Program-made: the position numbers and the translations under genes
Assembly: GCA_963920765.1 (NCBI GenBank)
Contig: OY987242.1
Span: forward strand, 38,216,002 to 38,280,001
Direction of reading: 5' to 3'
Length of the DNA stretch: 64,000 bases
Origin: Ulota crispa
Lineage: Eukaryota; Streptophyta; Bryopsida; Orthotrichales; Orthotrichaceae
Notes under the pieces: model-generated
What the model was told of the DNA's origin: nothing
Databases searched by the model: none
Seen by the model: only the letters and a program-made list of their open reading frames with translations
Shown: positions 23,737 through 54,759 of the stretch, in pieces
Position numbering within the stretch: position 1 is the first letter of the stretch
How the letters are laid out: each line of letters starts with the position of its first letter

Positions 23737-23740
23737 TTAA

Positions 23741-24863
23741 AGCCCACACACATTTTCCCAAAATCCACTAGAAACCGGGGTAGTAAAACTAGATGTGCAT
23801 TTAAAACAAATGTGGACCCAATTTGAATAATCCAACTCTACAAATGTGAAGGACACCTTGTTTGTCATAATGCATCAAAATTTCAGCTAGATCTACTGTT
23901 GGAGGTGAAATATTATATTAATTGAGTGAGCCGCATATGTAATATCTCTGGTTTTTCATGCTTGTGTGGTTTTGAATGGTAGCACTTCATGCAAGCTTTG
24001 ATTGAGAAGAGCCTTACATTTCTAGAAAGCAAGGTTTCCCATCTTTCCAACAAGACCAGTTTCACTCAAAATAGACAAAAATAGCAATCACAAGGTGTAA
24101 CTAAGTGGACAAAAAGGGTCAAAACTCCCATTTTCTTTGCTACCCTAAAATTGTACTACAAGAAATTTGGTAATTGTTACAAAAAATCTGATCGATGAAA
24201 GCAATCAAGAATTGACCTTAAATGTAGGATGAACTTTTTTTTAAATAAATTGATATCATCATTTCAATGGATTCTCAAATAGTACAATTGTACTACTACC
24301 GTATAGAGAAACAATACAAGCATATTTTTTAAGCAATTTGAAGTTTTTTAAGATTGCACAATTGAAATGTGGCATTCTTCTTGGATGTTTGATGTATTGT
24401 GTTGTTGCTTTGATCCATATTTGACCAAATATGAATATGTATTTTGAGGGCATGATGTATAAACACCATTATTTATCAACTTCCAGATCCAATTCTATTA
24501 TTGAAGAACTCAAAATCTCTAAAATTTAGAAGCTCCCAAAGCCCAATCTGACCTCCTAATTGAAAATGAAAGGGGAAATAATGGGGACCACCAAAGCAAC
24601 ATGTGGCAAGTCCTCCTTACTTCCTCCCCTTCAAAGTCAATATTTTCTCCCTTGCCCAAGTTGCTCCTCGAACTGCTTTTGGCCAAAAGAAGTCCATAAC
24701 TTGTGAACTGTGTGACATAATCACATGATTTTTTGCATCCCACAAACCTTGTAAATTCCTACACACTCATAAAAAGTTTCAAGAAATAATGTGAAAAATT
24801 GAGGTCACAGGAGCCTACCCAAAATCCCAAAAGTCCCAAGAGGGGACTTTGGGGCTTTAGGGA
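23741..24863. mobile_element. piggyBac-like element sharing its TTAA with the previous copy
   Basis: The left edge is the same TTAA (23737-23740) that ends the preceding element, and the right TTAA is at 24864-24867. The reversed right end reads TCCCTAAAGCCCCAAAGTCC, while the left end starts at AGCCCACACAC, so a few terminal bases are missing. About 750 bp from the left match, in inverse orientation, the element at 52635-53540 (for example TTTTCCCAAAATCCACTAGA and TTTCAGCTAGATCTACTG). Confidence 0.6.
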
Positions 24864-25447
24864 TTAATTCATATGCATGATATTGGTTTCATGGTGTATA
24901 CCATATGTGTACATCAACATTTTGTTGTTTTAAATACCAAAATTTCTTACAAACAAATATAAAAGATGCTCCTCAATTCTTTGAAAAAATCATATATGTC
25001 CCTCAAAGATTAAAAGTACCAAAAATATCTTTCCTTTTTGTATAAATTTCAACAATGCTTCTAATATATTGGGAAAATATTGAAAATGCTCCTCAACTAT
25101 TTTAAACTATTAATATCTTTGTGTTATATGATAACCAAGTGTATAGTTTAATGCACATTCTTACAAAAAAACCAAAGGTGATTTGTACATTTCAAATAAA
25201 ACAATGATAACTTTAACATTTCAAAATAGAAGAGCTTTTTTATTAATTTTCCAAAATAATAGGAGTATAATTGATATTCCTACAAAAAATAAGGAATATT
25301 TTTTATGTTTCAAATATTTTTGACGTAAACTTGATATTTTGAAAGACTTAAAGGGTGTTTTTAGTATTTTTCCTTCTATTATTGACCAAATGAATTATAA
25401 AAAAAAACAATCTTATAAAATATTTTTATAAGCTTTAAAAGATGGGA

Positions 25448-25851
25448 ATTAATATGTGTACCACACCCTTCTAATTACTATACCACATCATAGGGTAAAT
25501 TTTAGATGTCTACCATTAAAAAGCTAAATTTGAAAATTTTGAATTCAGATTTGGACTCAAAGACCATGGTATTGTCTAGAACCATAAAAAAAGTTGCAAT
25601 TCAACAACACCCAATGAAAAAGTTTAGTTAGGGAGAAAATTATTACTTTTACTTTTGTTTGTAAAAAAAGATAAGCTTTTTCATTGGGTGTTTTTGAATT
25701 GCAACTTTTTTTATGGTCCTAAACAATATCATGGTCTTTAAGTCCAAATTTGAATTCAAAATTCTCAAATTCAAATTTTTGATGGTAGAAATCTAAAGTT
25801 TATCTTGGAGGTATGGTACAGTAGTTCAAAGGGTGTGGTACACATATTAAT
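25448..25851. mobile_element. 404-bp foldback MITE with ATTAATATGTG ends, inside A1
   Basis: Begins ATTAATATGTGTACCACACC and ends GGTGTGGTACACATATTAAT, with arms complementary through GGTAGA(C/A)ATCTAAA, GAATTCAGATTTGGACT and GCAACTTTTTTATGG to a loop near 25640-25660. It interrupts sequence that is continuous in copy A4. Relatives lie at 48008-48955 (itself interrupted) and 63837-64000 (cut by the window end). Confidence 0.7.
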
Positions 25852-26364
25852 GCCCTTAAAAAATACCCAAAACTATTCAAAGGTCTATAGAATTTTGATT
25901 TTATAACTGCAAGGCTTTATTTCCTTCACTTTTCACAATTTCATGGTTTTTAGAAGTAGCAATCTATTGAGGCTATTTTAACATAATATGGTTGTTTTTA
26001 TTAAAACAAAAATAGCACTAAACAACATTTTAAAATGAAGCCAACCTTCACCTCTAACAATCCTATAGAAATTTGTGAATTCCAAAAAATTTATAAACAA
26101 AATCAAAAGGATGGAAATGAACAATTTTTTTAAAATTTCTTAACACCTTCTTTGATTTTAGCTCATAACTTTTGATAAAAAGATTGAAATCCAAAAAAAA
26201 TTGTTGAGGATAAAAGTAAAATACATTTACCAACTTTTCTTAGTTCTAAGTTTTTTGAAGAAAAGTCCTTTAATAGGCCAAAATAGCCTCCAAAGTCTAG
26301 TAGCTTACTAAAAACAAGAACATTTTATGTACAAATAAAACTATGATTCCACAGAGTGCATGTG

Positions 26365-26465
26365 TGGGTGCATGTGTGCTAGTGGTAGTGAGTGTTGTAG
26401 TAGTCTTGTGGTGTGAGAGACCGGTGGTGGGGGGTTTGAACCCACTGCTGGCCCTTCTTGGCGGT
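26365..26465 (+). repeat. tRNA-like (SINE-head-like) segment inside A1
   Basis: TGTGCTAGTGGTAGTG resembles a Pol III A box, and GGGTTTGAACCC about 50 bp downstream resembles a B box (consensus GGTTCGANTCC). The same arrangement occurs in copy A4 (54810-54905), with corresponding B-box-like palindromes in inverted orientation in A2 (near 27035) and A3 (near 32010). There is no cloverleaf I would accept as a functional tRNA. Confidence 0.45.
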
Positions 26466-26873
26466 AGCCGTGCTTGGCCTAGGGGCCAGGGGCCAATGGC
26501 CTAGCCCCTAGCAAATTAAAATTTTGATTTTTTTATTGAAAAAATAGATAATTTTATGAAAAAAAATAACATTTAAATTTTTTTAAAATAAAATAGAACA
26601 ACATAAAATAAGTGAAAATCAATAGAAAATTAACAGAAAATGAACAGAAAACAGCAAATAATCAACAAAAAATCAACAGAAAATTAGCAAACTCTTGTTG
26701 AAAAGTATCCAAATCAACTTGACAAAATCAACAGAAAAAATCAACAATTTTTGGTTGAAATTCTATTGATTTTGTACTAAATTTTCTACTAGTGATAGTT
26801 TGTTGTTTTTTTGTTAATGTCTATTGATTTTTTGTTGTTTATATGTTGTTTTTTCTTAGTAATTTTTTTTTCA

Positions 26874-30288: not shown

Positions 30289-30596
30289 AGAGAAATTTGA
30301 TGGATACACCTAAAGTTTGTGGTATTTGTATAGAAACCCCCAATTTTTTCAGAAATTGCACAAATACCAAGCATAAATAATAGGCTCTTTTTTTATTGTG
30401 CATACCACTTCCTTCTCCCTTTATGCGCATGCAAAATGAGAAAGAAAGAATGTGCTCACGAAGAGAGAAGGAAGTAACATACACAACAACAAAATTGCCT
30501 AAAATTTATGATCCAAGGGTATTTGTACAATTTTTGAAAAATCAGAAGTGTCTATACATATACCACAAACTTCAAGGGTATCCATCAAATTTTCCC
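30289..30596. mobile_element. MITE with perfect 8-bp duplication TATTAATA
   Basis: TATTAATA occurs at 30281-30288 and 30597-30604. The ends AGAGAAATTTGATGGATACA and, reversed, GGGAAAATTTGATGGATACC are complementary, followed by AAAGTTTGTGGTATTTGTAT against ATACATATACCACAAACTT. The 8-bp duplication would fit hAT, though the ends do not show the usual CAG start. The two ORFs here (30278-30484 and 30396-30602) are artefacts. Confidence 0.65.
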
Positions 30597-30725
30597 TATT
30601 AATAAATAGTTTCTCACATGATCAATAATACAACATCAAATCATTGTTTCTTGTAGAAAATACTCATATAAACACAATATGTGTTTGTATGTACCTCAAT
30701 AAATATGCTTTGCTAAATAAAATTA

Positions 30726-31653
30726 TCAAAGAAGAATAGGAATAAGTTCTCCTAAAAAATGATTTGGGTATTTTGCTATAATACCTGGAAGCTCTGGGGT
30801 CAGCTGTTTAACATGCCATCCACCAAGAACATTACGTGCTAAACCAATACAAATCATAGCTTTTCTAGTAAAATGAATTCCTCTCTGATCTCTATGTCCA
30901 TTTATATCTTTCATAGCAACTACTGCTAACCCCATAAAAAAAAGGTTTACTAGGGTTCCTTAACATTCCTCATACCCTACCATCTTCACGCACTTCATCT
31001 TGCCAATCTCCATTTTGAACACATTATAACTTGTAGGCTTCCCAACACAATGAAACATCTTTAATCTTTGAAATAATAAATGAATCTGTTGGTTGACACA
31101 AATCTGTTGCATTAGCTGGAAGTTTTCTAATTTCTATGTTTAATCTATCTATTGTTAGAAGTACTTGAGTAGTATCATTGTGTGATGCACAATTATCTAC
31201 ATACATCAATTTCCTTTGCCCTAACAAATCTAGTTGAATTGCTCTTTGTTCATTTAAATACTCATTCCAAACTACTCCTATCATAAATCCTTTTGCAGTA
31301 GTGCGATAACTTAAACCTACTACATCATCTGGACAACCATGAATAGGATGTTTACAATCTTTATTTTGGAATATTAAAAATGGATCATGTATCATAGCAT
31401 TTTGACCCCTTGATATTCTTACTAACATTGTAATTCCAACTCCACCAGACACCACATTTGCATATTTTATAGTACTATCTCCCCTAAACCCTAAAGTTCT
31501 ACCATTATCCATGTTAATAATAAAATGTGTCTCATCAACATTTTCAATAAGATCTTCATTTAATTCTCCTCTTTCAAAACCCCTACTCAACTCACCCATA
31601 TGATATGCTACTATTTGTTCAATATAAGCTTGTTTAATGGGACTTACTAATAG
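30726..31653 (-). pseudogene. DDE_1 (pogo/Jerky-type) transposase, C-terminal two thirds of a split gene
   Basis: Catalytic part of a DNA transposase that cuts and rejoins element ends with a DDE/D triad. In the open frame 31653-31024 the three acidic residues are visible: Asp in VDETH (codon at 31536-31534), Asp in MYVDNCASHN, and Asp in LCQPTDSF, spaced D-112-D-36-D, the DD36D pattern of DDE_1. The frame stops at 31024, but coding-like sequence resumes in another frame at 30935-30726 (TRKAMICIGLARN, LTPELPGIIAKYP), matching the usual C-terminal region, so a stop and a frameshift have broken it. The upstream border is an inserted CACTA element; the gene continues at 34568. Similar proteins are known to me from oomycete and other eukaryotic repeats. 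It is non-functional as read. Confidence 0.85.
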
Positions 31654-33487
31654 CACTATTAGAAAATTTAATAGAAAATCAACAGAATTTCAACTCAAAA
31701 TTGTTGATTTCATCTGTTAATTTGGTCAAGTTGATTCGGATACTTTTTGACAAGAATCTGTTGTTTTCCTGTTGACTTTTGTTGTTTTTTTGTTAATTTT
31801 TGTTGTTTTTCTATTTAATTTTTGTTATTTTTCTGCTGATTTTAGTTGTTCATTTGTGTTTTTTATCATTTTTTAATAATTTTTTTCATAAGAATTTATT
31901 ATTTGAAACCTTGTATGCTGGAAAATATAAATACCCAACCCGAAGGTTGGCCAGGCAGGCACAGCTACCCAGCTGCAGGCACACCAACTAGAGGCACCAG
32001 GGCTGGGGGTCAAACCCCAAACCTCAAGCTCCCCACTCAAGCCCCCTTATCCAACTCTCATGGCCATCAAACCACCCAAAATTGCATGTGTGCACATAAG
32101 AATAAGAATTATATTTGTACACTAGAAATGAATACTTTCCACTACTTGGCTATTTCGGCCTTGTAGAGGGCTTTTTTTCAAAAACTCAAAACCACAAAAA
32201 GTTGGTTGATGTAATCTACTTTCACCTCCAACAATTTTTTTGGATTTCAGATCTTTAATCAAAGATTATGAGCAAAAAGCTAAGAAGGTATTCAAATTTT
32301 TTTTTTAAATTATTTATTTCCTTGCTTTTGATTTTAGTTTATAACATTTGATTGAAACACATAAATCCCAAAATAATTGTTGCAAGTGAGGGTTGGCTTT
32401 ATTCCTAAAAAAATTCGTTTTGTTTTTTTTTGAAAACAAAACTCTTATTAGAATACTGTAGCCTCCATGGTTTGCTAGGTTCAGAAAACATCAAATTTTG
32501 AATAGTTATGGAATTGAAAAGCTGTAATCATACAATCAAAATTTCTAAGTATCCAAAAGATCAAAAAAGATTCTATAGTATTTTGAAGATCTTTGAATCT
32601 TTTTAAAAATTCAAAAAAATTCCATACGATTTCAATTTTTTTGTTGATTTGATTCATAAAAAAAGAGGAAATATTAAAAATGCTCTTTAGTTGTTTCAAA
32701 ATATTAAATTAAAATATAAAAAATAGTCTTTTTTTTGTTAGAGTATCAACTCTACCCCTAGTATTTTGAGATAATATAAAAAATGTTCTTTTATTTTGAA
32801 ATAGCAAATATTCTTTTGTGTTATTTGAAATAAAAAAATTACCTTTGGTTTTATGTAAGAATATTAATTAAACTATACCCTTAGTTCATTTTGAGGATAC
32901 TAGAAGTTCTCATAATTCACTTTTTTTTATTACAATTTTTTGTAACTACTAGAATGACAATGAAAATTACTAAATATAAAGGCAAGTGAAATGCAAACTT
33001 AATCTTATAGTAAAGTTGTTCAAACTCTTTATAGGAATTCTGCATATAGATTTATGCAAAAATTATTGCATCAACTGCATAGTGGTTATTATTTTTAATA
33101 TGAAATTTAAAATACAATTAGGAATACAATTTCATAAAAAGACAAAAAAAAACTAGAGGTATTTGTGGTATTTTCAAAATTTAAGAATAAACATTAATTG
33201 GCATTTTTACACAAAGCCAAAGGTAGATTTTTTTTTTCAAACTACACAAGGATTTATGTGATAATTTAAAATAGTGGAGGAGCATTTTTAATATTTTCCT
33301 AGTATATTAGAGGCATTGTTGGTATTTTTGCAAAAAGCCAAGGGTATTTTTGATACTTTTAATGTTTAAGGGACATATATGATTTTCTGTAAGAATTGAG
33401 GGGCATCTTTTAAATTTTTTCTTAAAGAAATTTTGGTACTTAAAACAACAAATGTTGTACTTTTTATATAAATTTTTGTTGAGTTAA

Positions 33488-33711
33488 CCCTTAAAGGACC
33501 ATAGGGCATAGTATATACGTTGTCGTATAACTAGCATTTGCTTCCAAAAAGAAGTTTTAATTGGGATCTCCAATAGCTCACTAGAACGGCTTGATTTATT
33601 TTCCAACTTCTTTGTTGATTTCAAATGTAGTAAAGGTGTGAATTTAGTCCAAATACAAGAAAAACACCTTGTATTCTATTGGTAGCAGCGGCACGCTATA
33701 TCCTTTAGGGG
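33488..33711. mobile_element. 224-bp piggyBac-like element inside A3, with empty site in A2
   Basis: TTAA at 33484-33487 and 33712-33715 flanks ends CCCTTAAAGGACCATAGGG and, reversed, CCCCTAAAGGATATAGCG. The equivalent place in copy A2 (near 28170-28190) reads GTTGAATTAATGAAGTTGTG with a single TTAA. This is direct evidence for TTAA target duplication and precise ends. Confidence 0.9.
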
Positions 33712-34159
33712 TTAATGAAGTTGTGTCCAAAAGTGTCCAAATCAACAAAAAACTATTGATTTTCTGTTGTTTTGTTTTGTCCAAAAGTGTATAGATTAAC
33801 AAAAAATTGTTGGTTTTTTGTTGTTTTGGTTATGTTTTTAGTAGACTTTAAAGGCTACTAATGTTAAACCATACCAAATTGTGAAAAATGAAGAAAAAAG
33901 CCACATTAAAATTCTAAATGATTCTAATTTTCTTCAAAACTTCTTTTATTTTTCAAAACTTCAAAATATTTTCATATAGTCCAAAGAGATTCTAGAAAGA
34001 TTTTAAAAACAACCCAAACTATTCTAATAGTTCTTTATAAAAAAATATTTTAAAACATTTTAATGAATTACAAAAAGATTCTGAAACAACTCTAATTGAG
34101 TCTAAGGGATTCTATTTTTTATAAATATTTTTAAGTCCTTTAACAAATTCCATAATTAA

Positions 34160-34420
34160 AGATTTCAAAAAGATTATCAAGGATTCCAAAAAAGATTATG
34201 AAAGATTATGAGAGATCCCAAATGATTCTGAAAGATTCCAAAGAAGATTTTTAGGGATTTCAAAAAGATTCTCAAAGATTCTCAAAGATTCTTAAAAGAT
34301 TATCAAAGATTCTCAAAAGATTTTCAAAGATTCTCAAATATTTTCAAAGATTTTTAAAGATTCCAAAAAAATTCTTAAAGATTTCCAAAAGATTTTTCAA
34401 AGATTCCAAATTTTTTGTTG
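34160..34420 (-). repeat. Decamer array (A3)
   Basis: AAAGATTCTC-type units in inverse orientation, shorter and more degenerate than in A1 or A4, at the same distance from the element end. Confidence 0.8.
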
Positions 34421-34564
34421 ATTTAGATAATGGTGTCCAAATCAACAGAACGTATTTAAATTTTTATAGAATTTTGTTAAATTAGTCAATTAGAATGGGC
34501 AAGTGCCCAAAACAATAAGAAATTGTTGATTTTCTGTTGTTCTGAACGGAGTTTTCTACTAGTG

Positions 34565-35045
34565 TAGCTTTCCAGTTTGAGTTCTTACAACAATATTAAA
34601 ACATATCACAAATGTTTGAACCTAAGCAAGATTCAACAACTCTAATAAACATTTTGTAGACCTTGGTTCTCTATAATGTGGTGAGAATAAGTGATGAGGA
34701 GACAATGACAAGATGTCTCTAGCCAAAGAGAGCAGTAATCTTGCAGAGAACTTGACACCAGCAGCTCTTAATCTCAGAAATTCAATTTTGAGCTCTTCAT
34801 GCAACCATGTGATCCATGATTTCTGTTTTCTTCCATAACTAGGTAAAGCTTTTATGTCCATCCTCCATCAAACTGAGTTACTAGCACGCACCATTGAAAA
34901 ATGATTGCCTTCCTCTTCTAATTGTTGAAGAAATTGAACTTGCCCTTTCCACCATTTACTAGCCTTTGTGATGTTGGCATGATAATTTTTATGTTGGAAA
35001 TGTTGAGGAAATTCTCTTAGACATTTTCCCATAGGCCCGATTTCA
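34565..35045 (-). pseudogene. DDE_1 transposase, N-terminal/HTH part of the split gene
   Basis: On the minus strand the sequence reads as coding from 35042 (IGPMGKCLREFPQHF, then NITKASKWWKGQ), through a CENP-B-like helix-turn-helix and linker region (WITWLHEELKIEFLRLRAAG, VKFSARLLLSLA), to RTQTGK at the lower border, where A3 was inserted. The order and content match the region upstream of the DDE domain in DDE_1 transposases. In-frame TGA (just before MDIKALPS) and TAG (after LLELLNLA) show decay. The upper border is the end of a 12-kb element, with the first exon-like piece resuming at 47065. Confidence 0.8.
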
Positions 35046-35299
35046 CACTATAAAAAATCCCCGTTTTTTTAGATGTCCAAAAACTGCCAATTTTGTGTTT
35101 AATTTGATGACAAACAAGTCCGCTCGCATGTCAAAAAATTTGTGTTAACTTCAACTAGCAAAATTCATCAAAAATTTCAGGAAAACAAGGGCATGTTTTT
35201 GGTGAATGTCAACATTAATATGGCTTCAGGGGGTAAGAAAAAATTGACCCATGGGGCAGATGGGCAGTGCCGGCCCTAGAAAACCTCATCCAGTAACTT

Positions 35300-37000
35300 T
35301 TTTTTTCATCCGGTGAAAATTTGACATCAACTCTGACATGCACGCATCCCAAAATCTTATGTGGTTTGTCAGAACAAGGGTAAGAGTGACCAATTCCAAC
35401 ATCAAGAATAACGTCAATAGGGACATCAAACTCAATGTTATCCTACCATTGAAAACATCTACAGCATTACAATCCATGTCTATATTGATGTGCAATGTCA
35501 CATGGCCCTATTTTGCTAGATGTTCCGCATTACGCAAGTAAGGACATGTTCAAGGTTGGACTTCAGGGTTATGTGTCCAATTCAATGTCTTCATTGACAT
35601 ACCTTTGCTCACCCAAGGCATTAAAAGTAACGTATATGATTACATTTGATTTTCTTGGAATTGTAAAATTTTGCAACAAGGTGTTGACTTAGGAGTACGG
35701 TGTTGACATTTGGATCGATGTGCACGTGCAATCTTGACATTCATTGCTACAACATTGGGGTTCATATGGATGTTAAGTTTGTCCGCTTTGGCATTCTAGG
35801 TGATGGCAAGCAAATCCCATGCCCTACTAAGCATGTATATTCTGGCACGGTATTGTTGATCAGAGTGCTATAATTGGCACTTTCCTTGACATAAGATGTT
35901 CCCCATGACGGCATTCCAAATGTAACATAAATCAGTTTGAATGTTCTAATTTACAACCACAGAAGTGCGCCATGTTCTAGGGGTATACAAATACATGTCT
36001 GTCAGCATGTAAATTCATGAGTTCTATTGTTACAAAAACATGGGTTCATTGATAGTGCATGTATAGATCCCTATATGTCTTGATATCCTCTGGAGTCACA
36101 TAAGCGTTTAATTGGATGTATTTTTAATTTTAGGGAACATTGATCTATATGCGCAGCACGTTTACGTGATATTGTTTGCCATGCGCAATGTAGCCCTTGC
36201 TTGTCCATCATAATGTCTCTAGGACATCAAATTGGAGGCTTGGGGTTTAAGTTGGTGATTGTTATTATGCAACGACAGCTTTGTTTGACATCTTTCCTTG
36301 TTTCCAAATTGTTTGAATGAATGCTAGTGGTTTAGGGTGGTGTTCATAAATGCCTACCATTTAGTTCATATTTGCCTACATGAATGTCTTCAATGACATA
36401 TCAGGAACGTCAGCTACTGAACTCAACAGCTCTATGAACATCCACTTAGTTCTAGTCTTGCCCCCCACGACACCTACTTTAATGCTTCCTTGGACATCTA
36501 CTGTGACCACATAGGTATTTCATTAAACATGCTTCTTTTAGTACTAAGGGGAATGGACGTCCCTTAGATGATTAGATCAACGTAGTACCAGGTGTTTCAT
36601 TGACGACATTGCAATGTCTTCAATGACATTCTCAACATGCATTATAATTACTTCCATCCTACCATAATCAACAAGGGGTTATGACCAATAGTGAAAGTCA
36701 TGCAAGCATCATTACCATGAAATAAAGTGTAATACAATGCACACTTCATGGTTCCATGTGTACATAATGTAACTTGGCACTAAACTCCAGCTTCCACATG
36801 TAAAGCTAAGCTCCCTCTTCCACTAGAATAAATCTAATGTTGTGCCGGATGTTGATTGGGATGTGAACACTACCATCTCTGCTATTAGGTCTAACGCACA
36901 TGCAATGCTGCACACGGCGTCCAAAAGGATATCAACCCCGTTAGAGATAATGCTCACATAAACAAATAAACGCAAGCCATGACGACTTCACATCAAAATC
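35300..37000. repeat. Dense GACATC / AATGTC motif field (left side of element B)
   Basis: Short words GACATC, GATGTC, TGACAT, ATGTCA and GACGTC recur every few tens of bases in both orientations, some as inverted pairs such as AATGTCTTCAATGACAT (twice: near 36385 and 36610). There is no credible ORF. The layout resembles the subterminal transposase-binding repeats of CACTA elements. Confidence 0.6.
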
Positions 37001-37097
37001 ACTCAAATCCTCAAATTCACCTACATCCGAAGCGGCAAAGGACTTCATTTCTTCCTTGCCGCATCTACCCTTGTTGTCAAAGCCCTTGCCTACACAA

Positions 37098-37334
37098 TCA
37101 CATTTCCTGTGTCAAGCCCTGTGTGCGTAGTTCTTGGTCATACAAAAATTCATGAAAACTGTAGAACTCACTAACCTTTCCATTTGATTTTATGGACCTC
37201 AGGTGGTTGGTCACAATCAATTTGGGGGCAACCGCTTCCACGGACAACAAAGGCCCCGTTGAATTTGTCGCCTTCTTTGCCGCTACCGTGCTACCCATTT
37301 TATATGGGTCCTCGGGTGTTGCTTGCTGCTGCAA
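37098..37334 (-). pseudogene. Possible downstream coding remnant of element B
   Basis: An open stretch on the same strand and just downstream of the ORF1-like remnant. It has a more coding-like composition than its surroundings but no motif I can name. It may be a 3' exon of the element's gene or chance. Confidence 0.25.
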
Positions 37335-37490
37335 GAAAATATCACCCTAGCAAAATAGTGGCACACAACATAGATGAGAGCGTCTAAATAAGCATGGATT
37401 GTTATAATGCATGTCGACCAAAGCATTCTCATTGACCTCCGCCTACATATGTAAATGTCATACAAGTCATTTCAATCAACATAACCCCGT

Positions 37491-39101
37491 TTAAAGATAC
37501 CTGCACAAAATATTGTTTACCTGCTCTAGCATGACTACAACAATGTCCTTAGTTGCATCCTTTGTTGGAGGTGTGCTGATAGCCAGTGTAACCTTGTTGC
37601 TATCCACACCCCCATCCTTTGTCACCATTAAGCCCTCCTTGGTGGCTTTGTCTGCAATCCCTCCATCTACCCCCACTCCTCCAACCACCACCGCGTCCCC
37701 ATTCACAACCACCGCCTCATCTCCACCAGACTTTGCAATGTCCACTTTTGCTCCTTCCTCCCTCTCCACCTCCTCAACTCCATCATTGGTCAATTGCTTC
37801 TTCTCTCCTCCCTGCGCTTGTGCGGCTGCCAAGGCTGCCACGCTTGCAGCCAACTCCTTGAGCATGCCCTCCAATTGAGATTATATAGACATCATAGCCA
37901 ATGACAGCTCTGCAACCAACCCTTGCACCTCTACTGTCCCTTCTTGAAAAATTGCAACTTCTTTGTTGAAGTCTGCACGCCCTTTTCCCTTCTTGCCCTC
38001 CAACCGCTTCATCTCCTCATCTATCTCTTCAACAATCTTGGTCTCATAGGGCTACTTGCCAAGCTCATTATCCTAAAACATAGATATCCACATCAATGTA
38101 GGGAAAAAATGTCAATACAGACAGCCACAACGTCACATACAAGGGGGATATGCTATAAAAATGTCAAGCAAATTATCAAAATAAGCCAACTACCATTATT
38201 TAGAACATCAAGGATGACAAGACGCACACATCATAAACTTTGAGGACATCCAACAAAACATGAAAGGACACGCATCTTACCAATCTATAAGTTATAGATG
38301 TCTGGAGCGCATTCAACTTTGCCGTATTGCCCCCCTTGCCTTGTGATATCGCCCGCATCTGTTGCAACTTTGCCTTGGACTCCACCGTCGCACGTTTCTC
38401 TATTAGAGACTCCCACTGCACGTCAGTGACCTTGGGCGGCTTTGGCAGGTTCTCATCGATCATCTTGTTAAGTTTGAAGCGCTTGGCAATGAGTAATTTG
38501 GTCATCCTGGGGCCTAAGCACTCCTTGTTGATCTGCTTCTCCCTATTCCTCCCCCGCAACTTAAACTGTGCAAGGACGTCCATCACCAGGCCAACATGAA
38601 CTACCCTATGCATACCAACATGAGAACAAGATTGCAATGTCAGTACAACAACAACCTAAGAATACCAATAACAAGTTTAAAGTGACATGGAATTATCCGC
38701 ATACAAGCGGTCAAAGAATCGCTCTTTGAGCACTTTCAACTACTGTGCCCAGCTGTAATAGCAATCAAGGTCCTTTGAAAGGAGCCTAATATCTGAACGC
38801 AAAGTCTTCACCATCTTCCCAATTAGGTTGAGATTGACGTCAATGAGTATTTTCTTCTTCTCCTCAACATCCTGCAGACATCAAAGCCGCTTGAAAGGCT
38901 GCTTCTCAACCTTTGGCCTGATTGGCAAAGGAGCGTGGTCAAAGTTAGACTCTTCCTTGTTTGTGCTCTCCTCCTCTTCATCACTATTTCTCCCCTCATC
39001 CTCTTTTGATGAGGAATCAAAAGGACTAAACAACATATGCAACACATCTGAGTTAATATGTCTTCTATGTCATTTGAGGTGTTCAACAAAACATGAGACA
39101 T
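37491..39101 (-). pseudogene. Decayed CACTA ORF1-like protein (Ptta/En/Spm, Transposase_24-like)
   Basis: Read from high to low coordinates, the pieces are: an acidic stretch (EDEGRNSDEEEEST) near 39000; a block VKTLRSDIRLLSKDLDCYYSW (ends near 38745) followed by an in-frame TAG; the long frame 38637-38200 with VTDVQWESLIEKRATVESKA then QGKGGNTAKLNAL, whose W...SKAK...R...GG layout resembles plant Transposase_24 proteins; a charged helix KIVEEIDEEMKRLEGKKGKG (near 38030); and a coiled-coil-like frame at 37874-37491 (MLKELAASVAALAAAQAQGG). Several stops and frame shifts separate the pieces. Such proteins in intact CACTA elements are thought to bind subterminal repeats. The family assignment is by pattern only. 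Confidence 0.5.
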
Positions 39102-39419
39102 ATAAGAATTTGCAACTAGACATGTATAAGAAAATCAAAACAAATGTACAAACAACAAATCACGTTGAAAACAACGCATTTGGACAACATATCGGACGTA
39201 AACATTCATCAAACATGTCCATCCAGACATCCAAAAAGCTAACCTCAACAATTAAGTGCCAATTCTGGAATGTGTAAAACAAACCCTTGTCAAACCCCTC
39301 AGCCTTATCCATGCTAACCTCTTTCCAATTCAATGTGGAATCTGGGCAAACCTAGCCTACCTAATCCACTAACATGATTGGAAAAATAACATAAACTACT
39401 GAATCACCAAATCAGAAAC

Positions 39420-40990
39420 TAAAAAGAAAAGAAACCTATCCCTACACCCTCTCCCTTCTCTACAAAATCTCCTTGTCCATCCCTATTTGGAATACTCACA
39501 AGTCAAGCCCATCAAAATCACCAAACATGATTAAACATTACCCACAAAACTCTAATTATAACCAAACATGAAACAAAAAATGAAAAAAGGGGCTTATAGC
39601 CCTGTGCCTTCTCCATGACATCCATGTCCATCCCAATTTTGAAAAATTCACAACTTTGGCCAGTTTAATCACCAAACACGATTAAACATTACCACATAAC
39701 TTTGATTATACCAAACATGAACCAAAAAATGAAAAAAAAGGTTAATAGCCCCATGCCTTCCCACGACATTCTCGTCCATCTCATTTTCAAAAAAATTCAC
39801 AACTCTTGCCCATCCAATCACTAAGCACAATTATACATTACCACAAAACTCTAATTACAACCTAACATGAACCAAAAAAAGAAAAGAAAAAAGGCTCATA
39901 GCCCCGTGCCTTCCCCAGGACATCCCTATCCATCTCAATTTTGAAAAATTAAACAACTCTGGCCAATCCAATCACCAAACACGATTAAACATTACCCACA
40001 AAACGCTGATAATACCATACATGAACCAAAAAATGAAAAAACGGGGGCCTTATAGCCCCATGCCTTCTCCATGACATCCTTGTCCATCCCAATTTTGATA
40101 AAGTCACACCTCTCGCCATCTAATCACCAAACACAATTAAACATTATCCACAAAACTTTGATTACAACCAAACATGAACAAAAAATAAAAGAAAAAATGC
40201 CTTATAGCCCCATGGCTTACCCACGACATCCTTGTGCATCCAAAATTTGAAATATTGACAGGGCTAGCCCATCCAAATCACCAAACATGATTAAACATTA
40301 CCACATAACTCTGATTATACCAATCATGAACCAAAAAATGGAAAAAAACAAGTTTAATAGCCCCGTGCCTTCCCTTGACATCCCTGTCTGTTCCAATTTC
40401 AAAATATTGACCAGGCTGGTCCATCCAAATACCAAACATGATGAAACATTACCCACAAAACTCTAATTACAACCATATATGAAACAAAAAATGAAAAAAA
40501 TAGGCTTATAGCCCCTTGGCTACCCCACGACATCCCTGTTTACCCCAATTTCAAAATATTGAGAAGGCTGGTCCATCCAAACACCAAGCACAATTAAACA
40601 TTACCTCAAAAGTCTAATTACAACCAAACATAAACCAAAAATTGTAAAGAAAATAATTTAATAGCCCCATGGCTTCCCCACGCATCCGTGTGCATTCCAA
40701 TTTCAAAATATTCACAAGGCTGGCCCATCCAATCACCAAACACTATTCAACATTACCCACATAACTTTGATTACAACCATACATGAACCAAAAAATGAGA
40801 AAAAAAGGGCCTTACAGCCCCTTGGCTTCCTCGCAAAATCCCTGTCCATTCTAGTTTCAAAATATTCACAACTTTGGCCCATCCAATCACCAAACACGAT
40901 TAAACATTACCCACAAAACTTTGATTACAACCAAACATGAAACAAAAAATGACAACACGGCCCCTAAAATTTCTTGCCTAAATCCAAGAA
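39420..40990 (+). repeat. 152-bp tandem repeat array, left (about ten copies)
   Basis: Unit landmarks are ATCACCAAACA(C/T)GATTAAACA, TTACCCACAAAACT(C/T)TGATTA, AACCAAACATGAACCAAAAA, (C)TTATAGCCCC(A/G)TG and CATCCCTGTCCATCCCAA. The TAGCCCC landmark recurs at 39597, 39746, 39899, 40053, 40205, 40358, 40509, 40662 and 40815, a spacing of 149-154 bp. The units are inverted relative to the array at 43180-45290. Confidence 0.92.
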
Positions 40991-41099
40991 ATCTCCTATC
41001 AATCTCAATTTGAGAATCTATGCACTTCTGGCCGAACCCTAAACCCTAATACAATTGTGAAAACTCCATACAACTAGATCTCAACCATACTTAGAATTG

Positions 41100-43140
41100 G
41101 AAATCCATGACTTGTATGAATTTGGAACCTGTGCACCCGGACCACAGGTCACCGCCCTTGTTGCATTCAATTCAAAGCCCTCAATCTACAACAATTGTTG
41201 AGCAACCTTTGACGTCCACAGAAACATAGAGCCTTGTCTAGCTAAACACTCGCGCATCTTGTCAAACATCTCATTGACAATTTCCAAAAGAGCGAGAGAA
41301 CTGAAAGTAGTACCTGCCATCATTGGGCTCCACGGATACCTGTTGTGCAACCTCTCGCTCGTCCCTCTTGCCATCGGACCTTTGCTTTGTTGCTCAAACC
41401 ACCTCCCCTCTGTGCAGCTTTGGACGTTGAGGTACCACCTCCACCAACAACTTTGCCTTCCCTCTTGAGCTTAATGCTCCTGCGTCTGACCATGCCTTGG
41501 ATGGCATATCGTGAGCTTGTCTGCGCCGCCGCTGCTCCTCTTGGGGAGATTTGTCTAGACCATTGTTGATCTCAATTGGCTTTGACTGTGGTGATCGCAG
41601 CCGCTTCCCCAAGCTAGGTGTCTTATCCATCCTTGCTGCCCTGCAGGACCACCATTGGAACTGCAAGAACAACTATCAGTATAGTTGTGTACAACAAGAG
41701 AAACCAGCACTGATGAAGAGAAATCAGAATTGAAGCAACAAACACTTGTGTCGACGTCTACAAGATTGGCCTCAACGCGTCCCCGCCGCTTTGTCGTTTG
41801 CCGCAACTCCTTGACACAGCAAGCTTGTCGTTAGATCCACGCTCATTAAAACTAACAGCCGACATCAGACGAAATGCACAAACAGTGGCATGGTGGACAT
41901 CTACCACCAAGGGCAAGCCCTACCGCCATGAATGAGTACCTGATGAAGATCTGTGGCCTTTGTGGCCTTTCGAGTCCCTCATTGCCTCTGTCTCTGAGCT
42001 CTCGCCTCTGCCTCCAAGCTCCCGCCTTTGTTGGCCTTGGGCCTCCATTGAACGCCTGCCCTCCGCTCCCTGTCGCCTCCCCACCTCCGTTCCAACCAAG
42101 AGCCGCCACTTCTCCACCTTTGTCTTCTCTAGTTGCCAAAGGAGCATTGCACCGCTTGCGCAGTTCATGATTGTGTGAGTGGAGCCAAAGAAGATGAAGG
42201 AGCCATTGTTGCAGCTAGCTCCACAAAATTTGTGAACGCTTCAAGTGCAGTGCTGCTAACCTCAATTCTACAGGTGCGTCTCCTCTAATTGCGGAAACCC
42301 TATTGTCCTTGTAATGCAATGCATTGACGTTCTTCAGTCGCATTGTGAAACTTCACATTTGCAACTTTCTCGTCAAGCATGACTTTGAAACCCAAATACC
42401 TATTTTCCGTGTGGTGTGAACTTTTGAGACTTTTGAATGAAGCCTCTCAAAAGGATCATTGTGTGCATTTAGTTGGCCACATGGGGTCATCCAAGTATAT
42501 CCACTCCCTAAAATTCATGATTACAATAGTATGTCTTGTCGCAAAATGTCTCTGGAGACATCAAAAGAGACGTCAATACGTCAGTAGTAATGTGAATGTC
42601 AACAATTTAGTCCACAATGATACAATAAGCATTGTAAGGAACGTTACACATGCCATAATCAATGTCGCCCCAAACATGTAGGTCAATGCATCTAGATCCA
42701 AGTTAGTTTCAGCGTGGTCATTGTGCATTGCCTTCACTGTGTACAATTTTCCACGATTGCCCTGTGCTTGCTGGCTGATTGTATTGAATATAATAATCAC
42801 CATGTACTAGGTATTGGTTGAACTTGATGGTTACAGATGACTGATACGAATGAGACAAACATGTTTGTTTCTTGACGCAATTTTCTGGACGTCTACCAAC
42901 TCTTGTGTTAACGATGACATGAGGCAAATTACAAACATGTTAATTTTGTTGTCAATCAAATCACATGGATGTCACAATAGACATCAATTACAACATAAAA
43001 ACGTGGATGATTCTACAAACAACTGAAGAAAACCATGAGTTTTTTTCAATGAAAACAAATGAGGTGCAAAAACTAAGGCTAAGAAAAGTAAGGTCAAATC
43101 AAAAACCTAGGATTTGGTTTACATTTTTGGGACAAATTAG
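41100..43140. other. Central segment of element B, between the opposed arrays
   Basis: 41.2-42.2 kb is relatively GC-rich and holds overlapping ORFs on both strands (for example minus 41852-42139 and 41920-42168, rich in Gly, Arg and Glu). None shows a recognisable domain, and the two-strand overlap suggests compositional artefacts or an old promoter/first exon. 42.3-43.1 kb returns to GATGTC/GACATC-type sequence. Confidence 0.35.
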
Positions 43141-43179
43141 AGAGTGTCTTAGCCTAAAGATTTAGGGAAAAGTACATAC

Positions 43180-45290
43180 AAACTTGGAAACAAAGGTACC
43201 AAGATGAGCTAGGCCACTTAGGCCCCTTTTCTTTCAATTTTTGGTTCATGTATGGTATAATCAGAGTTCTGTAATAGTGTTTAATCGTGTTTGGTGATTG
43301 GATAGCCGGAGTTGTGAATATTCTGAAACTGGAATGCACAGGGATGCGTGGAGAAGCCATGGGGCTATAAGGCCCTTTTTTTCATTTTTTGTTTCATGTA
43401 TGGTTGTAATCAAAGTTATGTAGGTAATGTTTAATTGTGTTTGGTGATTGGATGGGCCAGCCTTGTGAATATTTTGAAACTGGAATGGACAGGGATTTTG
43501 CGGGGAAGCCAAGGGGCTGTAAGGCCCTTTGTTTTCATTTTTTGGTTCATGTATGGTTATAATCAAAGTTATGTGGGTAATGTTTAATCATGTTTGGTGA
43601 TTGGATGCGCCAGAGCTGTGAATATTTTGAAATTGGAATGCACAGGGATGTTGTGGGAAGCCATAGGGCTATAAGGCCCTTTATTTTTCAATTTTTTTTT
43701 CATGTTTGGTTGTAATCAGAGTTTTGTGGGTAATGTTTAATCATGTTTGGTGATTGGATGCGGCAGCCTTGTGAATAATGTGAAACTAGAATGGACAAGG
43801 ATGCATGGGGAAGCCATGGGGCTGTAAGGCCTTTTTTGTTTCATTTTTTGGTTTATGTATGGTTGTAATCAGAGTTTTGTGGTAATGTATAATTGTGCTT
43901 GGTGTTTGGATGGACCAGCCTTCTCAATATTTTGAAATTGGAATGCACAGGGATGTTGGGGGAAGCCAAGGGGCTGTAAGGCCCTTTTTTTTAGTTTTTT
44001 GGTTCATGTATGGTATAATCAAAGTTATGTGGTAATGTTTAATTGTGTTTGGTGATTGGATGGTCAGAATTGTGATTATTTCAAAATTGGAATGGATAGG
44101 AATGTTGGGGGGAAGGCATTGGGGCTATAAGGCCTTCTTTTTCATTTTTCAATTCATGTTTGATTGTAATCAAAGTTTTGTGGTAATGTTTAATCATGTT
44201 TGGTGATTGGATGGCCAGCCTTGTGAATATTTTGAAATTGGAATGGACAGGAATGTTGGGGGGAAACCAAGGGGCTGTTAAACTTTTTTTTTTCATTTTT
44301 TGCTTCATGTTTGGTTGTAATCAGAGTTATGTGGTAATGTTGGATTGTGTTTGGTGATTTGGATGGGCTAGCCTTGTGAATATTTTGAAATTGTAATGGA
44401 CAGGGATGTTGGGGGGAAACCAAGGGGCTGTTAAACTTTTTTTTTTCATTTTTTGTTTCATGTATGGTTGTAATCAGAGTTTTATGGGTAATGTTGAATC
44501 ATGTTTGGTGATTGGATGGCCAGAGTTGTGAATTTTTCAAAATTGGGATGGACAAGGATGTCATGGGGGAGACACGGGGTTATAAGCCCTTTTTTTGTTT
44601 CATTTTTTGTTCCATGTTTGGTTGTAATCAAAGTTTTGTGGGTTATGTTTAATCATGCTTGGTGATTTGGATGGACCAGCCTTGTTAATATTTTGAAATT
44701 GGGATGGGCAGGGATGTCGTGGGAAGGCACGCGGCTATGAAACTTTTTTTTTCAATTTTTGTTTCATGTATGGTTGTGATCAAAGTTTTGTGGGTAATGT
44801 TTAATTGTACTTGGTGTTTGGATGGACCAGCCTTCTGAATGTTTTAAAATTGGGATAGACATGGATGTCGTGGGGAAGCCAAGGGGCTATAAGCCTTTTT
44901 CTTTTTTCTTTTTTAGTTCATGTTTGGTATAATTAGAGTTATGTGGTAATGTTTAATCGTGTTTGGTGATTTGGATGGGCCAGAGTTGTAAATATTTTGA
45001 AACTGGGATAGACAGGGATGCGTGGGGAAGCCATGGGGCTATAAAGCCCTTTTTTTATTTTTTGGTTCATGTTTGGTATAATCAAAGTTTTGTGGGTAAT
45101 GTTTAATCTTGTTTGGTGATTTGGATGGGCCAAAGTTGTGAATATCTCAAAATTGGAATGGACAGGGATGCCGAGGGCAGTCATGGGGCTATAAGGCTCT
45201 TTTTTTCATGTTTTGGTTCATATTTGGTTGTAATCAAAGTTTTGTGGGTAATATTTTATCATGTTTGGTGATTGGATGGCCGGAGTTTAG
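43180..45290 (-). repeat. 152-bp tandem repeat array, right (about thirteen copies, inverted)
   Basis: Reverse-complement units of the left array, with the landmark GGGGCT(A/G)TAAGGCCC near 43362, 43513, 43666, 43818, 43970, 44122, 44271, 44424, 44576, 44730, 44884, 45036 and 45187. Spacing is again close to 152 bp. The ORFs reported here (for example 43261-43566 and 44081-44308) are repeat artefacts. With the left array it could form a stem of well over 1 kb. Confidence 0.92.
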
Positions 45291-45699
45291 GTGTTAGGGT
45301 TTAAGCGTGACAAAGATGGCTTTAGCATAGCCAATTTCAACCGCATGGATAGTGCGGTGAACGCCGACTCATTTGCATTTCCATTGCATTGTCAGCAAGT
45401 ATTTTTGTCTGATGATGCACAAAGAAATAGATGGAAGGTTTTTTGTAGAACAAACGTGCGAGGGCAACGTTCAACACGGCATGAAGAGCAACATGACCCT
45501 ACCATCATCAACATCAGAATGATGCTGACTTTGAAGGCGTAGCACCCGTTGCAATGGAAACATAACCCAGAAGAAGACCAGACACTAGGGGTGGTACCTA
45601 CATCGTACCCACAATAGAGAGACCCGAAGGAGTAGCCACAGCACATGAGGAGTGATACATGTCGTGGCCTTAGACTACATGACTAGGACATTGTCTGAA

Positions 45700-47000
45700 G
45701 CACGTGCTGTATGACATCCCTAATATACTAGTAGACGTTCAAACCCACGTCAATCGCAGAAAATGAGGTATTGCGTACCATTTGCATAATTTGTGGGATG
45801 TTCTAGTGAGCACCCACTTGTTGGCCCTGCACAGTAACTTGGAATTTTCTACATCAAAGATTGTGTTTGAGAAAATGTTCATGTGGATGTTGTTAATAGC
45901 GTGGTGCATGTCCACGCAAATGATGGATGTATGATTTACCTGAAATGGTCCATTGCAAATTGGATGTCTTCAAAAGTCAAAACTGCATTCAGTAGGATGT
46001 CAATGTGAACATCACTCTTATTGTGGAGTGGCATGGTTAAAGTGATGTCTATCTGAATGTCCCTCATGACGTTAGCATTTATAAGGTCCATGACACTTGT
46101 AATGGGCAATAATTACCTTAAATCCTCCATAGTAACATGTACAAAGTAACCCAATGTTAATTTGAGCCACAATTGCCAGCGTGGTAGGCATGTTTAGATT
46201 GATGTCATGACGGACATGGTTATAGATGCGTGGAATGTAGCTAATCATAATTTCTAAAAATGGTGGACTTTTAACTTCACAATGCATAGTAACTAATGGA
46301 AATTTACTGTGTGAAATTGACCCACCTTGTCAGAGTGTCAGTCACGTTATATTTGATATCCGAGCAAACATTGTAGCAAACATGCAAAAATTCCCACAAT
46401 TAGAATTATTTGATGGTCTGCGTTTTCACTTGTACGTACTCTGTAACTTTGGAAAAGTTACCCATGGTAAACGCGGCCTCCAATGCCAACCTGGCACTTA
46501 TGTTTAGTTTGACATCAAAGAAAACGTCTTTGCAGACATCTAAATTTCTAGGGACAATTTTTTTATACTGGTCAGCAATTTTACCCTTTATGTAAATAGT
46601 TAACTCCAGGAAGTTACCCTTGGTGAAATTGACCTCGCATTGTCAGAGTTACAATCATGTTCATCACAATGTCAAGCCTGATGTGGGAACAGACGTTTGC
46701 ATTTTTGTGGGCTGTAATTTGTATAGTGGGCAATTTTTTACCAAAATCTAGAGAGGTAAATTGTGGAGAGCTACCCATAGTGAAATAAATGTGCCCTTGT
46801 CAGACTGGTAAGCACGTTGATTTTTATGTCATAATGGACATGTGTGAAGACATCCATGTTTGGATAGACATTGTCGTTGTTTTTCTTGACATTAGGGCTA
46901 CTATTCTTGACAATCACACGTTCAATAGATGTTATGAAATGTTGACATCAAAATTTTCTAGATTTTGAAAGCCAATTGATGCCAAAATTATGTTAGAATA
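45700..47000. repeat. GACATC / GATGTC motif field (right side of element B)
   Basis: The same short words as at 35.3-37.0 kb recur in both orientations (GGATGTCAATG, GTGATGTCTATC, GATGTCATGACGGACATGG, AAACGTCTTTGCAGACATC). There is no credible ORF. It mirrors the left field in position relative to the element end. Confidence 0.6.
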
Positions 47001-47064
47001 AACGCTTCTAACAAGGGGTTACTTTTGCATGGACGTCAAAAAAAACGCAAGTTTCAGAAGGTGA

Positions 47065-47159
47065 TCACCTTCTATTGTTGATGTACTTATCATCCATTGA
47101 ATCACTTCTTTACTGATTGCCTTTGTAGAAACATGTTGCCTTGATTCTCCATTTGTCAT
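47065..47159 (-). pseudogene. DDE_1 transposase, first N-terminal piece of the split gene
   Basis: On the minus strand, ATG at 47159 opens a short frame containing STKAISKEVIQWMIS that reaches ATAGAAGGTGA, where element B was inserted. The frame resumes at 35042 on the far side with AATCGGGCC. The content (basic start, then a KxxVIQWM helix) fits the N-terminus of this transposase family. It is short, so the assignment depends mainly on the shared duplication and the rejoined frame. Confidence 0.6.
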
Positions 47160-51298: not shown

Positions 51299-51469
51299 AC
51301 ACACTAGTAGAAAATGAATTAAAAACCAACTGAAAACCAACAAGTCTTTGTTGTTTGGAGCACTGAAATCCACAAGTGCAATATTTGAAGTGATTTTTGT
51401 TCAGCCAAGAACAGATGCTACTCTTTGTTTGTTGGTTTGGACACTATTGATTAAATCAACAAGAAATTT

Positions 51470-52340
51470 TGGAGTCTTTGAGAATCTTATTAGAAAATTT
51501 GAAAATCTTTGGAAATCTTTTTAGAATCTTTGAGAATATCTAAGAATCTCCTTGGAATCTTTGAGAATCTTTGAGAATCTTTGGGGATATTTATGGAATA
51601 TTTGGAGAATCTTTTGTGAATCTTTTATAAATCTTTGAGAATCTTTGAGAATCTTCTTTGAAATCTTTTTAGAATCTTTGAGAATCTTTGGGAATCTTTT
51701 TAGAATCTTTGAGAATCTCTGAGAATCTTCTTGGAATCTTTGAGGATCTAATTAGAATCTTTGAGAATCTTTGAGAATCTTTGGGAATCTTTGGGAATCT
51801 TTTTAGAATCTTCGAGAATCTCTAAAAATCTTCTTGGAATCTTTGAGGATCTGATTAGAATCTTTGAGAATCTTTGGGAATCTTCTTAGAATCTTTGGGA
51901 ATCTTTGGGAATCTTTTTAGAATCTTTGAGAATCTCTAAAAATCTTTTTGGAATCTTTGAGGATCTTATTAGAATCTTTGAGGATCTTATTAGAATCTTT
52001 GAAGATCTTATTAGAATCTTTGATAATCTTTGAGAATCTTTGAGAATCTTAAAGATCTTTAGGATCTTTAAGAATCTCTAAGAATCTTCTTGGAATCTTT
52101 GAGAATCTTTTGGAATCTTTATGCAATCTTTAGGAATCTTTTGGAAATCTTTTGGGAATCTTTGAGAATCTTCTTGGAATCTTTGAAAATCTTTGTGGAA
52201 CCTTTAGAATCTTTGGGAAGCTTTATGTAATCTTTGGAAATCTTTTTGGAATCTTTTTGGAATCATCAAGAATCTTCATAGAATCTTTGAGATTCTTTTT
52301 GGAATCTTGAGAATCTACTTGAAATCTTTATGATATTTGT
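51470..52340 (+). repeat. Decamer array (A4)
   Basis: Units GAGAATCTTT, GGGAATCTTT and TTTTTAGAATCTTT, with a higher-order repeat of roughly 100 bp visible where GAATCTTTGAGGATCT(T/G)ATTA recurs (51730-52020). Confidence 0.88.
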
Positions 52341-52634
52341 CAAAATGCTTCAAAATCTTTATAAAAATAAATCTATTAGACTCAATTAGAATCTTTTTAG
52401 AATCTTTTTGGAATTCATTAAAATATTTTAAAATGCTTTTTCATAAAAAAACTACTTGAATAGTTTGGGTTTTTAAATCTTTCTAGAATCTTTTTAGACT
52501 TCATGAAAATGTTTTGAAGTTTAAAAAAATAAAAGAAGTTTTCCAAAAATTAGAATCTTTTAGAATTTTAAGTGAACATTGAATGGGTTTTTTCTTCATT
52601 TTTCACAATTTGGTATGATTTGAAATTAGTTTAA

Positions 52635-53540
52635 CCCTTTAGAGACCACCAAACCATATTTTGGTTCAGGAGAGTAGTTTTTGGCATGTACAATAAAATC
52701 AATCAACAATTTGGAAAATGATCTTGAAGAACACTTGTGATCACAAGAATTTTGCATCCAACCCAAGAAATGACAATGGAATCGGATATGTAAGTTGATA
52801 AATAATGGTGTTTATATGGCATGGCCTCAAAATACGTATCCATATTTGGTCAAAGATGGATCAAAGCAACCACACAATACACCAAACATCCAAGAAGAAT
52901 GCCTCATTTCACCTAAGCAATCTTAAAAAGTTCAAATTGCTTAAGGAATACGCTTGTATTGTTTCTCTATACGATAGTAGTACAATTGTAGTATTTGAGA
53001 ATCCATTGAAATGACACTATCATTTTATTTTTAAAAAAATCATCATATACTTAAGGCCAATTCTTGATTGCTTTCACCAATCAGATTTTCCATAACAATT
53101 ATCAAATTTCTTGTAGAATTGTTTTAGGGTAGCAAAGAAAATGGGAATTTTGATCCTCTTTGTCCACTTAGCTACACCTTGTGATTGCTATTTTTGTCTA
53201 TTTTGTGTGAAACTAGTCTTGTTGGAAAGGTGGGAAACCCTGCTTTCTAGAAATGTAAGGCTCTTCTCAACCAAAACTTGCATGAAGCGTTAACATTCAA
53301 AACCTTTACAAGCATGAAAAACTAGAGATTTTCCATATATGACTCACTCAATCATTATGATATTTCACCTGCAACAATAGATCTAGCTGAAATTTTGATA
53401 CATTACAACAAACAAAATGCCCTTCACATTTGTACAATTGGATTATTCAAATTGGGTCCATATTTGTTTCAAATGCACATCTAATTTTGTTGTCTTGATT
53501 TCTAGTGAATTTTGGGAAAATGTGTGTGGTCTTTAAAGGG
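52635..53540. mobile_element. 906-bp piggyBac-like element inside A4
   Basis: TTAA at 52631-52634 and 53541-53544. Ends CCCTTTAGAGACCACC and, reversed, CCCTTTAAAGACCACAC. It occupies the same TTTAAAG position of family A as the unrelated insertion in A2 (28261-29063); A3 is empty there (33846-33860). The interior matches 23741-24480 in inverse orientation. The ORF at 52805-53014 is the counterpart of the one at 24259-24453 (minus), which is the same repeat read twice, not a gene. Confidence 0.8.
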
Positions 53541-54759
53541 TTAAAAGTCTACTTAAAACATGACCAAAATCACAAAAAATCAACAATTTTCTATTGATCT
53601 GAACACTTTTGGACACAACAAAACAACAAAAAATCAATAATTTTTTGTTGATCTGGACACTTTTGGACACAACTTCACATGATCAACAGAATTTTATATA
53701 AAAAGTACAACATTTTTTTGTATTAAATACCATAATTTCTTTATGAAAAAATATAAAAGATGCCCCTTAATTCTTTCAAAAAATCATATAGATCCCTCAA
53801 AGATTAAAAGTATAAAAGTTACCCTTGGCTTTTTGTAAAAATATCAACAATGCCTCTAATATATTGGGAAAATATTAAAAATGCTCCTCAACTATTTCAA
53901 ATCATCAAATATCCTTGTATTATATGATGAACAAGGGTATAGTTTAATTCACAATTTCTTACAAAAAAACCAAAGGTGATTTTTATGTTTCAGATAACAA
54001 GAGGGTATATTTGACATTTCAAAATAGAAGAGCACTTTTAGTATTTTTCCAAAATACTAGGAGTGTAATTGATACTCCTACAAAAAGTAAGGAGTATTTT
54101 TGCTGTTTTTAAATATTTGAGGCACAAATTTAATATTTTGAAAGAATTGAAGGGCATTTTTAGTATTTTTCCTTCTTTTATTGACCAAATCAAAAAATAA
54201 AATAAAAACCTTATGAGTTGTTTTTTGAATCTTTAAAAACACTCAAAAATATTCAAAAAATTATAGAATTTTGATTTTATAATTGCAAGACTTTATTTCC
54301 TTCACTTTTCACAATTTCATGGTTTTTAAAGGTAGCAAACTATTGAGGCTATTTTAACAAAATACGGTTGTTTTTATAAAAAAAATAGCACTAAAAAAAA
54401 TTTTAAAATGAAGCTAACCTTCACTTGCAACAATCCTTTTGTGATTTGTGAATTCCAATCAAAAATTATAAACAAAATCAAAAGAGTGGAAATTTATAAT
54501 TTTTAAAAAATTTCTAAACACCTTCTCTGATTTTTGCTCATAACTTTTGATTATAAGATTGGAATCTTAAAAAAATTGTTGAAGGTGAAATTAAACTACA
54601 TTAAGCAACTTTTTGTAGTTTTAAGTTTTTTGAAAAACAATCTTCTAATTGGCCAAAATTGCCTCTAAAGTTTATTGGTTTTACAAAGTATTGAAAACAT
54701 TCACCTAATATAGTGTACAAGTAGAAACTTCATTCCCGTGTGCACATGTGCTCATGCAA

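Follow-up and report, generated by a model that had tools for sequence, protein, structure and literature searches.

We analyzed a 64,000-nucleotide stretch of the Ulota crispa genome (hereafter the window; C1:38216002-38280001 in a 275-Mb assembly), a transposon-rich region in which a pseudogene of a DDE_1-type transposase is interrupted by two CACTA-type elements, here called E1 and E2. The pseudogene lies on the minus strand in three pieces: P1 (47159-47065), the N-terminal piece with its ATG at 47159, assigned by tblastn and an in-frame joint; P2 (35042-34568), the middle piece, assigned by tblastn and carrying two in-frame stops; and P3 (31653-30726), which comprises the DDE_1 catalytic part (PF03184) and a C-terminal tail with a frameshift and stops. 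P2 and P3 are separated by E1, a 2.9-kb element on the plus strand (31654-34564) with terminal inverted repeats (TIRs) CACTATTAGAAAA and TTTTCTACTAGTG and a target-site duplication (TSD) of TAG at 31651-31653 and 34565-34567. P1 and P2 are separated by E2, a 12.0-kb element on the plus strand (35046-47055), whose left end CACTATAA is intact and whose right end has lost its final 8 bp. The TSD of E2 is TCA, at 35043-35045 and 47065-47067, and the right copy forms the first bases of the outer arm (47065-47073) of a palindrome. The original prediction, made from the letters of the window, had described these three ordered pieces, both gaps and both TSDs, and all of them are present; its TCA borders of E2 hold at both positions, but the 9 bp adjoining the right copy on its inner side (47056-47064) do not belong to the element. 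The palindromic scar formed by 47056-47073 was missed in that first reading.

To establish the continuity of the interrupted gene, uninterrupted relatives were sought in the genome, and P1, P2 and P3 were singly compared by tblastn with 15 genome loci, representing 12 places outside the window. P3 was 39-50% identical to L002-L006. P2 matched L002, L003, L005 and L006 at 34-36% over 150-162 aa (E 1e-21 to 6e-25), with further matches of 39% over 64 aa in L004 and 24% over 141 aa in L014. P1 matched 4 of the 12 places (L002, L004, L005 and L006) at 50% over 24-30 aa (E 8e-4 to 6e-3); this match is weak by itself, and its exact place and frame carry the assignment. Both P2 and P3 were matched across their joint in 5 of the 12 places (L002-L006), six places matched P3 alone, and L014 matched P2 and P3 only weakly and in part, without the two matches meeting. 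The order of the pieces was constant wherever more than one matched well. In L002-L005 the P2 match ends at the codon where P3 starts, and in L006 the P3 match begins at residue 7 with the register unchanged.

The joints themselves were then read directly. A scripted check, in which the short flanks were joined with one TSD copy kept, gave a single frame at each site. The spacing from a shared G to FP at the P1/P2 joint is 11 residues in the window as well as in 5/5 relatives, and the P2/P3 joint aligns with the relatives free of gaps, so that no residue is missing or extra at either joint. L005 retains a 382-codon open frame across both insertion points, and L003 likewise a frame of 270 codons. 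The three pieces total 1498 bases (~499 codons). These results bear out the proposal that excision of both inserts restores a continuous transposase of about 500 codons apart from stops and frameshifts: the joints are in frame, and the uninterrupted relatives are continuous at the same junctions.

P3 contains a 208-codon open frame (31030-31653, minus strand), beyond which a frameshift and stops follow; this frame had 24 genome matches including itself. P3 resembles DDE_1 transposases in its score against Pfam PF03184 (32.9 bits; cut-off 22), and a 172-aa frame of the relative L005 scored slightly below the cut-off (21.9). We take DDE_1 transposases to belong to the pogo/Tigger-like group, and the D/E-type catalytic positions of this copy presumably lie in their usual motifs. 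The CENP-B label of the original prediction was not supported, DDE_1 being the only Pfam match in the window copy or its relatives; neither CENP-B nor any other DNA-binding match was obtained. A CENP-B/Tc5-type DNA-binding domain was not detected in L005 (382 aa), L003 (270 aa), P1 or part of P2 at E values up to 1, and P1 and the stop-free part of P2 (34625-34867) had no Pfam match at the same limit. No relative of P3 was found in the PDB at E up to 1, and no convincing terminal pair of TIRs with a TA TSD was seen in five relatives or around the window copy. The relatives are 85-97% alike in the DNA of their alignable pieces, whereas the window copy is only 39-50% (P3) and 34-39% (P2) identical to them, and by this sequence comparison the window copy is an old, separate lineage. 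Directly downstream of the pseudogene lies a unit resembling a miniature inverted-repeat transposable element (30290-30600) with long inverted ends (ATTTGATGGATAC...GTTTGTGGTAT...).

E1 has clean borders with TAG on both sides, TIRs that start with CACTA, and an array of the 10-bp repeat AAAGATTCTC close to its right end. A genome search with E1 gave 168 matches, from 40 scored among 5758 candidate places, and L017 and L018 are full-length relatives with 87-89% identity. TSDs were read by eye in the 10 relatives among L017-L030 with both ends in the locus (L020, L021, L024 and L030 were left out, one end being missing or part of a neighboring copy). The 3-bp TSD matched in 7 of the 10 (AAA, TGT, TTT, GTA, TTT, TAA and CTA) and mismatched in L019, L025 and L026. 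The right terminus of L027 reads GGG instead of GTG. The longest open frame of E1 encodes only 106 aa, and we therefore take E1 to be non-autonomous, as far as its sequence indicates. Further CACTA ends of the E1 type occur in the window at about 12947-26794, at about 29819 and at 51302-55239, of which the first pair would delimit a 13.8-kb minus-strand element. At C2:5705355-5709732 (L019, L020 and L024), an E1 copy is split by ~150 bp and adjoins an inverted partial E1 copy; E1-type elements thus seem to nest in or recombine with each other.

E2 was searched against the genome with its 600-bp left and 600-bp right stretches, and the element begins with CACTATAAAAAATCCCC. Including E2 itself, 40 left-end and 32 right-end matches were obtained, and 28 elements could be paired left to right (median length 16.6 kb, window copy included). 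The 3-bp TSD was identical in 19 of the 28 pairs, namely 15/17 off contig C11 and 4/11 on C11. The nearest relatives are 90-91% identical, so E2 is ~10% diverged. One sister, L063, is 8.3 kb long, has CTT as its TSD and shares 91% identity across both ends; a 2.6-kb segment found in E2 at 36852-39453 is missing from it. We considered this segment as a nested insertion and rejected it, because the segment is present in many other E2 copies; it recurs there at 85-90% identity and, in the copies whose coordinates were compared, equally far from the left end, and is native to the family. E2 also carries a 152-bp satellite array (39470-40952) and a 153-bp array (43224-45279) inverted relative to the first. 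A Pfam scan of all 60 listed frames of at least 55 aa in the window copy, a list drawn from outside the satellite arrays, detected no transposase domain (TNPD-type PF02992 or other), and this copy is possibly defective.

C11 (6.3 Mb) is a small contig dense in E2-type elements (e.g., L035, L038, L040, L041, L042 and L043). Six of the seven TSD-mismatched pairs on it are 16.2-16.8 kb long; the mismatches look as if flanks had been swapped by recombination between copies, and C11 is possibly a non-recombining chromosome. Elsewhere, at C4:14226566-14236199 (L082/L072), an E2-type element sits midway in an imperfect palindrome, with flanks inverted over ~20 bp and a TSD of TTA at the center.

At its right end, E2 would be expected to read CGCAAGTTTCTTATAGTG followed by the flank, as in L055 and L057. 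The observed sequence is CGCAAGTTTC, then AGAAGGTGA, then TCACCTTCT. The 9 bp AGAAGGTGA (47056-47064) stand in place of the terminal TTATAGTG and are the exact reverse complement of the flank TCACCTTCT (47065-47073), which starts with the TCA copy, giving an arm of 9/9. Despite this loss on the right, the E2 left end and both TCA copies are intact.

To place this scar within the family, 31 of the 32 right-end matches were examined; the remaining one (C11:4057626-4057833) matches query bases 1-207 only and does not reach the end. L046 (the window copy), L059, L074 and L075 were read by eye, and L046, L074 and L075 were then measured at the TSD border. The results showed that 28/31 right ends retain TTATAGTG or a near variant, among the latter L056 (AGTA), L059 (ATATAGT, then ACCC) and L070 (a 2-bp loss). 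The terminus was lost in 3/31, namely the window copy, L074 and L075, and all three carry a palindrome centered on the TSD border. The scar of L074 is CCTGGA/TCCAGG (6/6 paired), with its TSD TCC agreed by the left end L091. The scar of L075 is CCTATCGAC/ATCAATAGG (7/9 paired), with a left flank of GTC at L090. As background, arms of at least 9 occurred at 5 of 63861 centers in the window when one (TA)n run was omitted, the scar being one of the five; arms of at least 6 occurred at 51 centers, and at least 7 of 9 paired positions at 252. The palindrome comparison is post hoc, but its center is fixed by the TSD.

Left ends were examined for 35 of the 40 matches (15 loci and 20 fetched); the other five (C1:38174188, C2:18923982, C11:4465465, C1:38174892 and C7:7068091) match the query internally only. 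One of the 35, L096 (C11:898660-898780), is without CACTATAAG and has TCAATTGA at its border, a possible fourth scar.

Taken together, a DDE_1-type gene was hit independently by two CACTA-type elements, after which E2 probably underwent a failed one-ended excision that left the scar. In time, the gene preceded both E1 and E2, and the scar followed E2; the identities to the nearest relatives (87-89% for E1 vs 90-91% for E2) give no order between E1 and E2. The joints, the TSDs and the two multicopy element families thus uphold the earlier proposed history of a DDE_1 element followed by two CACTA-type hits. It is hardly conceivable that introns or unrelated spacing account for the gaps and that P1, P2 and P3 are separate relics: transposase and host genes can, as a matter of general knowledge, contain introns, but in the relatives a single open frame runs across both points, and the sequences filling the gaps bear CACTA termini and 3-bp TSDs and are found again at other sites, flanked there by different TSDs. 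The last step of the earlier history, a piggyBac-like element nested in one insert, is very improbable for E2. TTAA-bordered inverted segments do occur inside E2; however, every such pair found is a unit of the opposed 152/153-bp arrays, themselves shared by the sister L063, and none of the 60 listed frames has a piggyBac domain.

The scar itself allows two further explanations. Plain decay, in which substitutions and a one-base insertion altered the right end of E2 and the palindrome arose by chance within the nest as described, would draw on the ~10% divergence of E2 from its nearest relatives and on the 4 of 8 terminal bases that still match the family terminus (TTATAGTG vs AGAAGGTG). It would nevertheless need four changes within 8 bp and one insertion that jointly reproduce the flank in inverted form at 9/9 positions. 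Two further copies, whose TSD borders are given by their left ends, show the same geometry, and among the remaining right ends with minor terminal changes no arm near the border exceeds 4; we regard decay as improbable. Repair by snap-back or template switching, acting on a break at the end of E2 that was unrelated to transposase cutting, is an unlikely source as well. Fold-back priming at breaks is proposed as a source of inverted duplications in the available part of PMC10622511, but the center of the palindrome falls on the element/TSD border in 3/3 cases, which points to the transposase cut site, and a random break with fold-back would be expected usually to leave a spacer.

Under the favored explanation of a failed one-ended excision, a reading that we extend to L074 and L075, the CACTA transposase would have cut only the right end of E2, and the flanking DNA would have been left with a hairpin flush against the border of the element. 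This hairpin would then have been opened by a host nuclease at 9 nt from the tip and its overhang filled in, and the exposed E2 end would have lost 8 nt before end joining resealed the flank to it. E2 would have been retained with its other end either uncut or resealed. Because one TIR is damaged, E2 is now likely stuck.

Several observations weigh against this explanation. No E2 transposase was seen in the scanned frames. L075 carries an imperfect scar, with a right TSD copy of ATC where the left has GTC (a changed base or an imperfect call). At four of the eight lost positions, simple substitution would have kept the base that is now present. One of the 35 left ends (L096) is also without its terminus, with a weak 8-bp palindrome and no partner end, and the right and left counts of terminus loss (3/31 vs 1/35) are small. 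In the E1 family, 39 other right ends all reach to within 3 bases of the element end and have no scar; these right ends are among the best 40 of 1037 candidates, a choice that disfavors truncated ends. Finally, the literature search found no direct biochemistry of CACTA cleavage, and older En/Spm and Tam footprint papers did not surface in it. The terms sought on CACTA footprints were all absent from PMC8195511, as were "hairpin" and "palindrom" from PMC8978399, and earlier publications may already describe flush palindromes for CACTA elements.

E1 and E2 resemble plant CACTA (En/Spm) elements such as soybean Tgmt* and Tgm9 in their CACTA-type TIRs (of which E2 keeps the left), 3-bp TSDs, end repeats and defective copies, all of which are described for soybean elements in the available parts of PMC2613891 and PMC4773125. 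Unlike the soybean elements, E2 has no transposase domain in the scanned frames and has opposed 152/153-bp arrays and a scarred right end, and E1 lacks a long open frame. The available part of PMC4773125 also reports that Tgm9 occasionally fractures during excision, yielding stable mutations, which by analogy fits a failed excision of E2. In rice, excisions are mostly imperfect, with deletions or filler DNA, according to the part of PMC4423477 available to us, where superfamilies are pooled.

The closest likeness of the scar is to hAT (Ac/Ds) footprints, which contain inverted flank copies from off-center opening of a flank hairpin. Hairpins on hAT flanks appear in the accessible portion of PMC3878927, and that of PMC5873905 documents palindromic P-nucleotides from hairpin opening for Ac/Ds, with arms of up to 20 nt in yeast. 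The two differ in geometry. The hAT palindrome has as its center the complement of the base adjoining the element, which has itself left the site, whereas the E2 scar is an even palindrome whose center falls between two bases and is flush with the TSD border, and E2 has stayed at its site.

Other features were recorded outside the nest. An annexin repeat and a Polyketide_cyc2 domain, at window positions 2426-2794 and 6289-6681, are ordinary gene pieces. The assembly includes a contig carrying rbcL and accD that resembles a bryophyte chloroplast. At L062 (C97:118173-118940) a chloroplast-type rbcL and an unrelated protein-like stretch are fused in one 964-codon open frame; the contig at L062 looks chimeric or contaminated.

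The nest itself is ordinary plant transposon biology, yet it is unusually well documented, since this genome also contains uninterrupted copies with which each joint can be compared. The scar carries more weight than the nest, as it offers sequence evidence on how a CACTA transposase cuts DNA. We tentatively propose, with chances somewhat short of even, that CACTA transposases form a flank hairpin flush with the border rather than offset by one base as in hAT, that they can cut one end alone, and that retained elements bear legible palindromic scars of failed one-ended excisions (3/31 right ends). If this is true, palindromic scars would be a fossil record of the cleavage step that could be surveyed in any genome. 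The finding suggests that retained elements with one dead end could both reveal the cleavage step and mark immobile copies.

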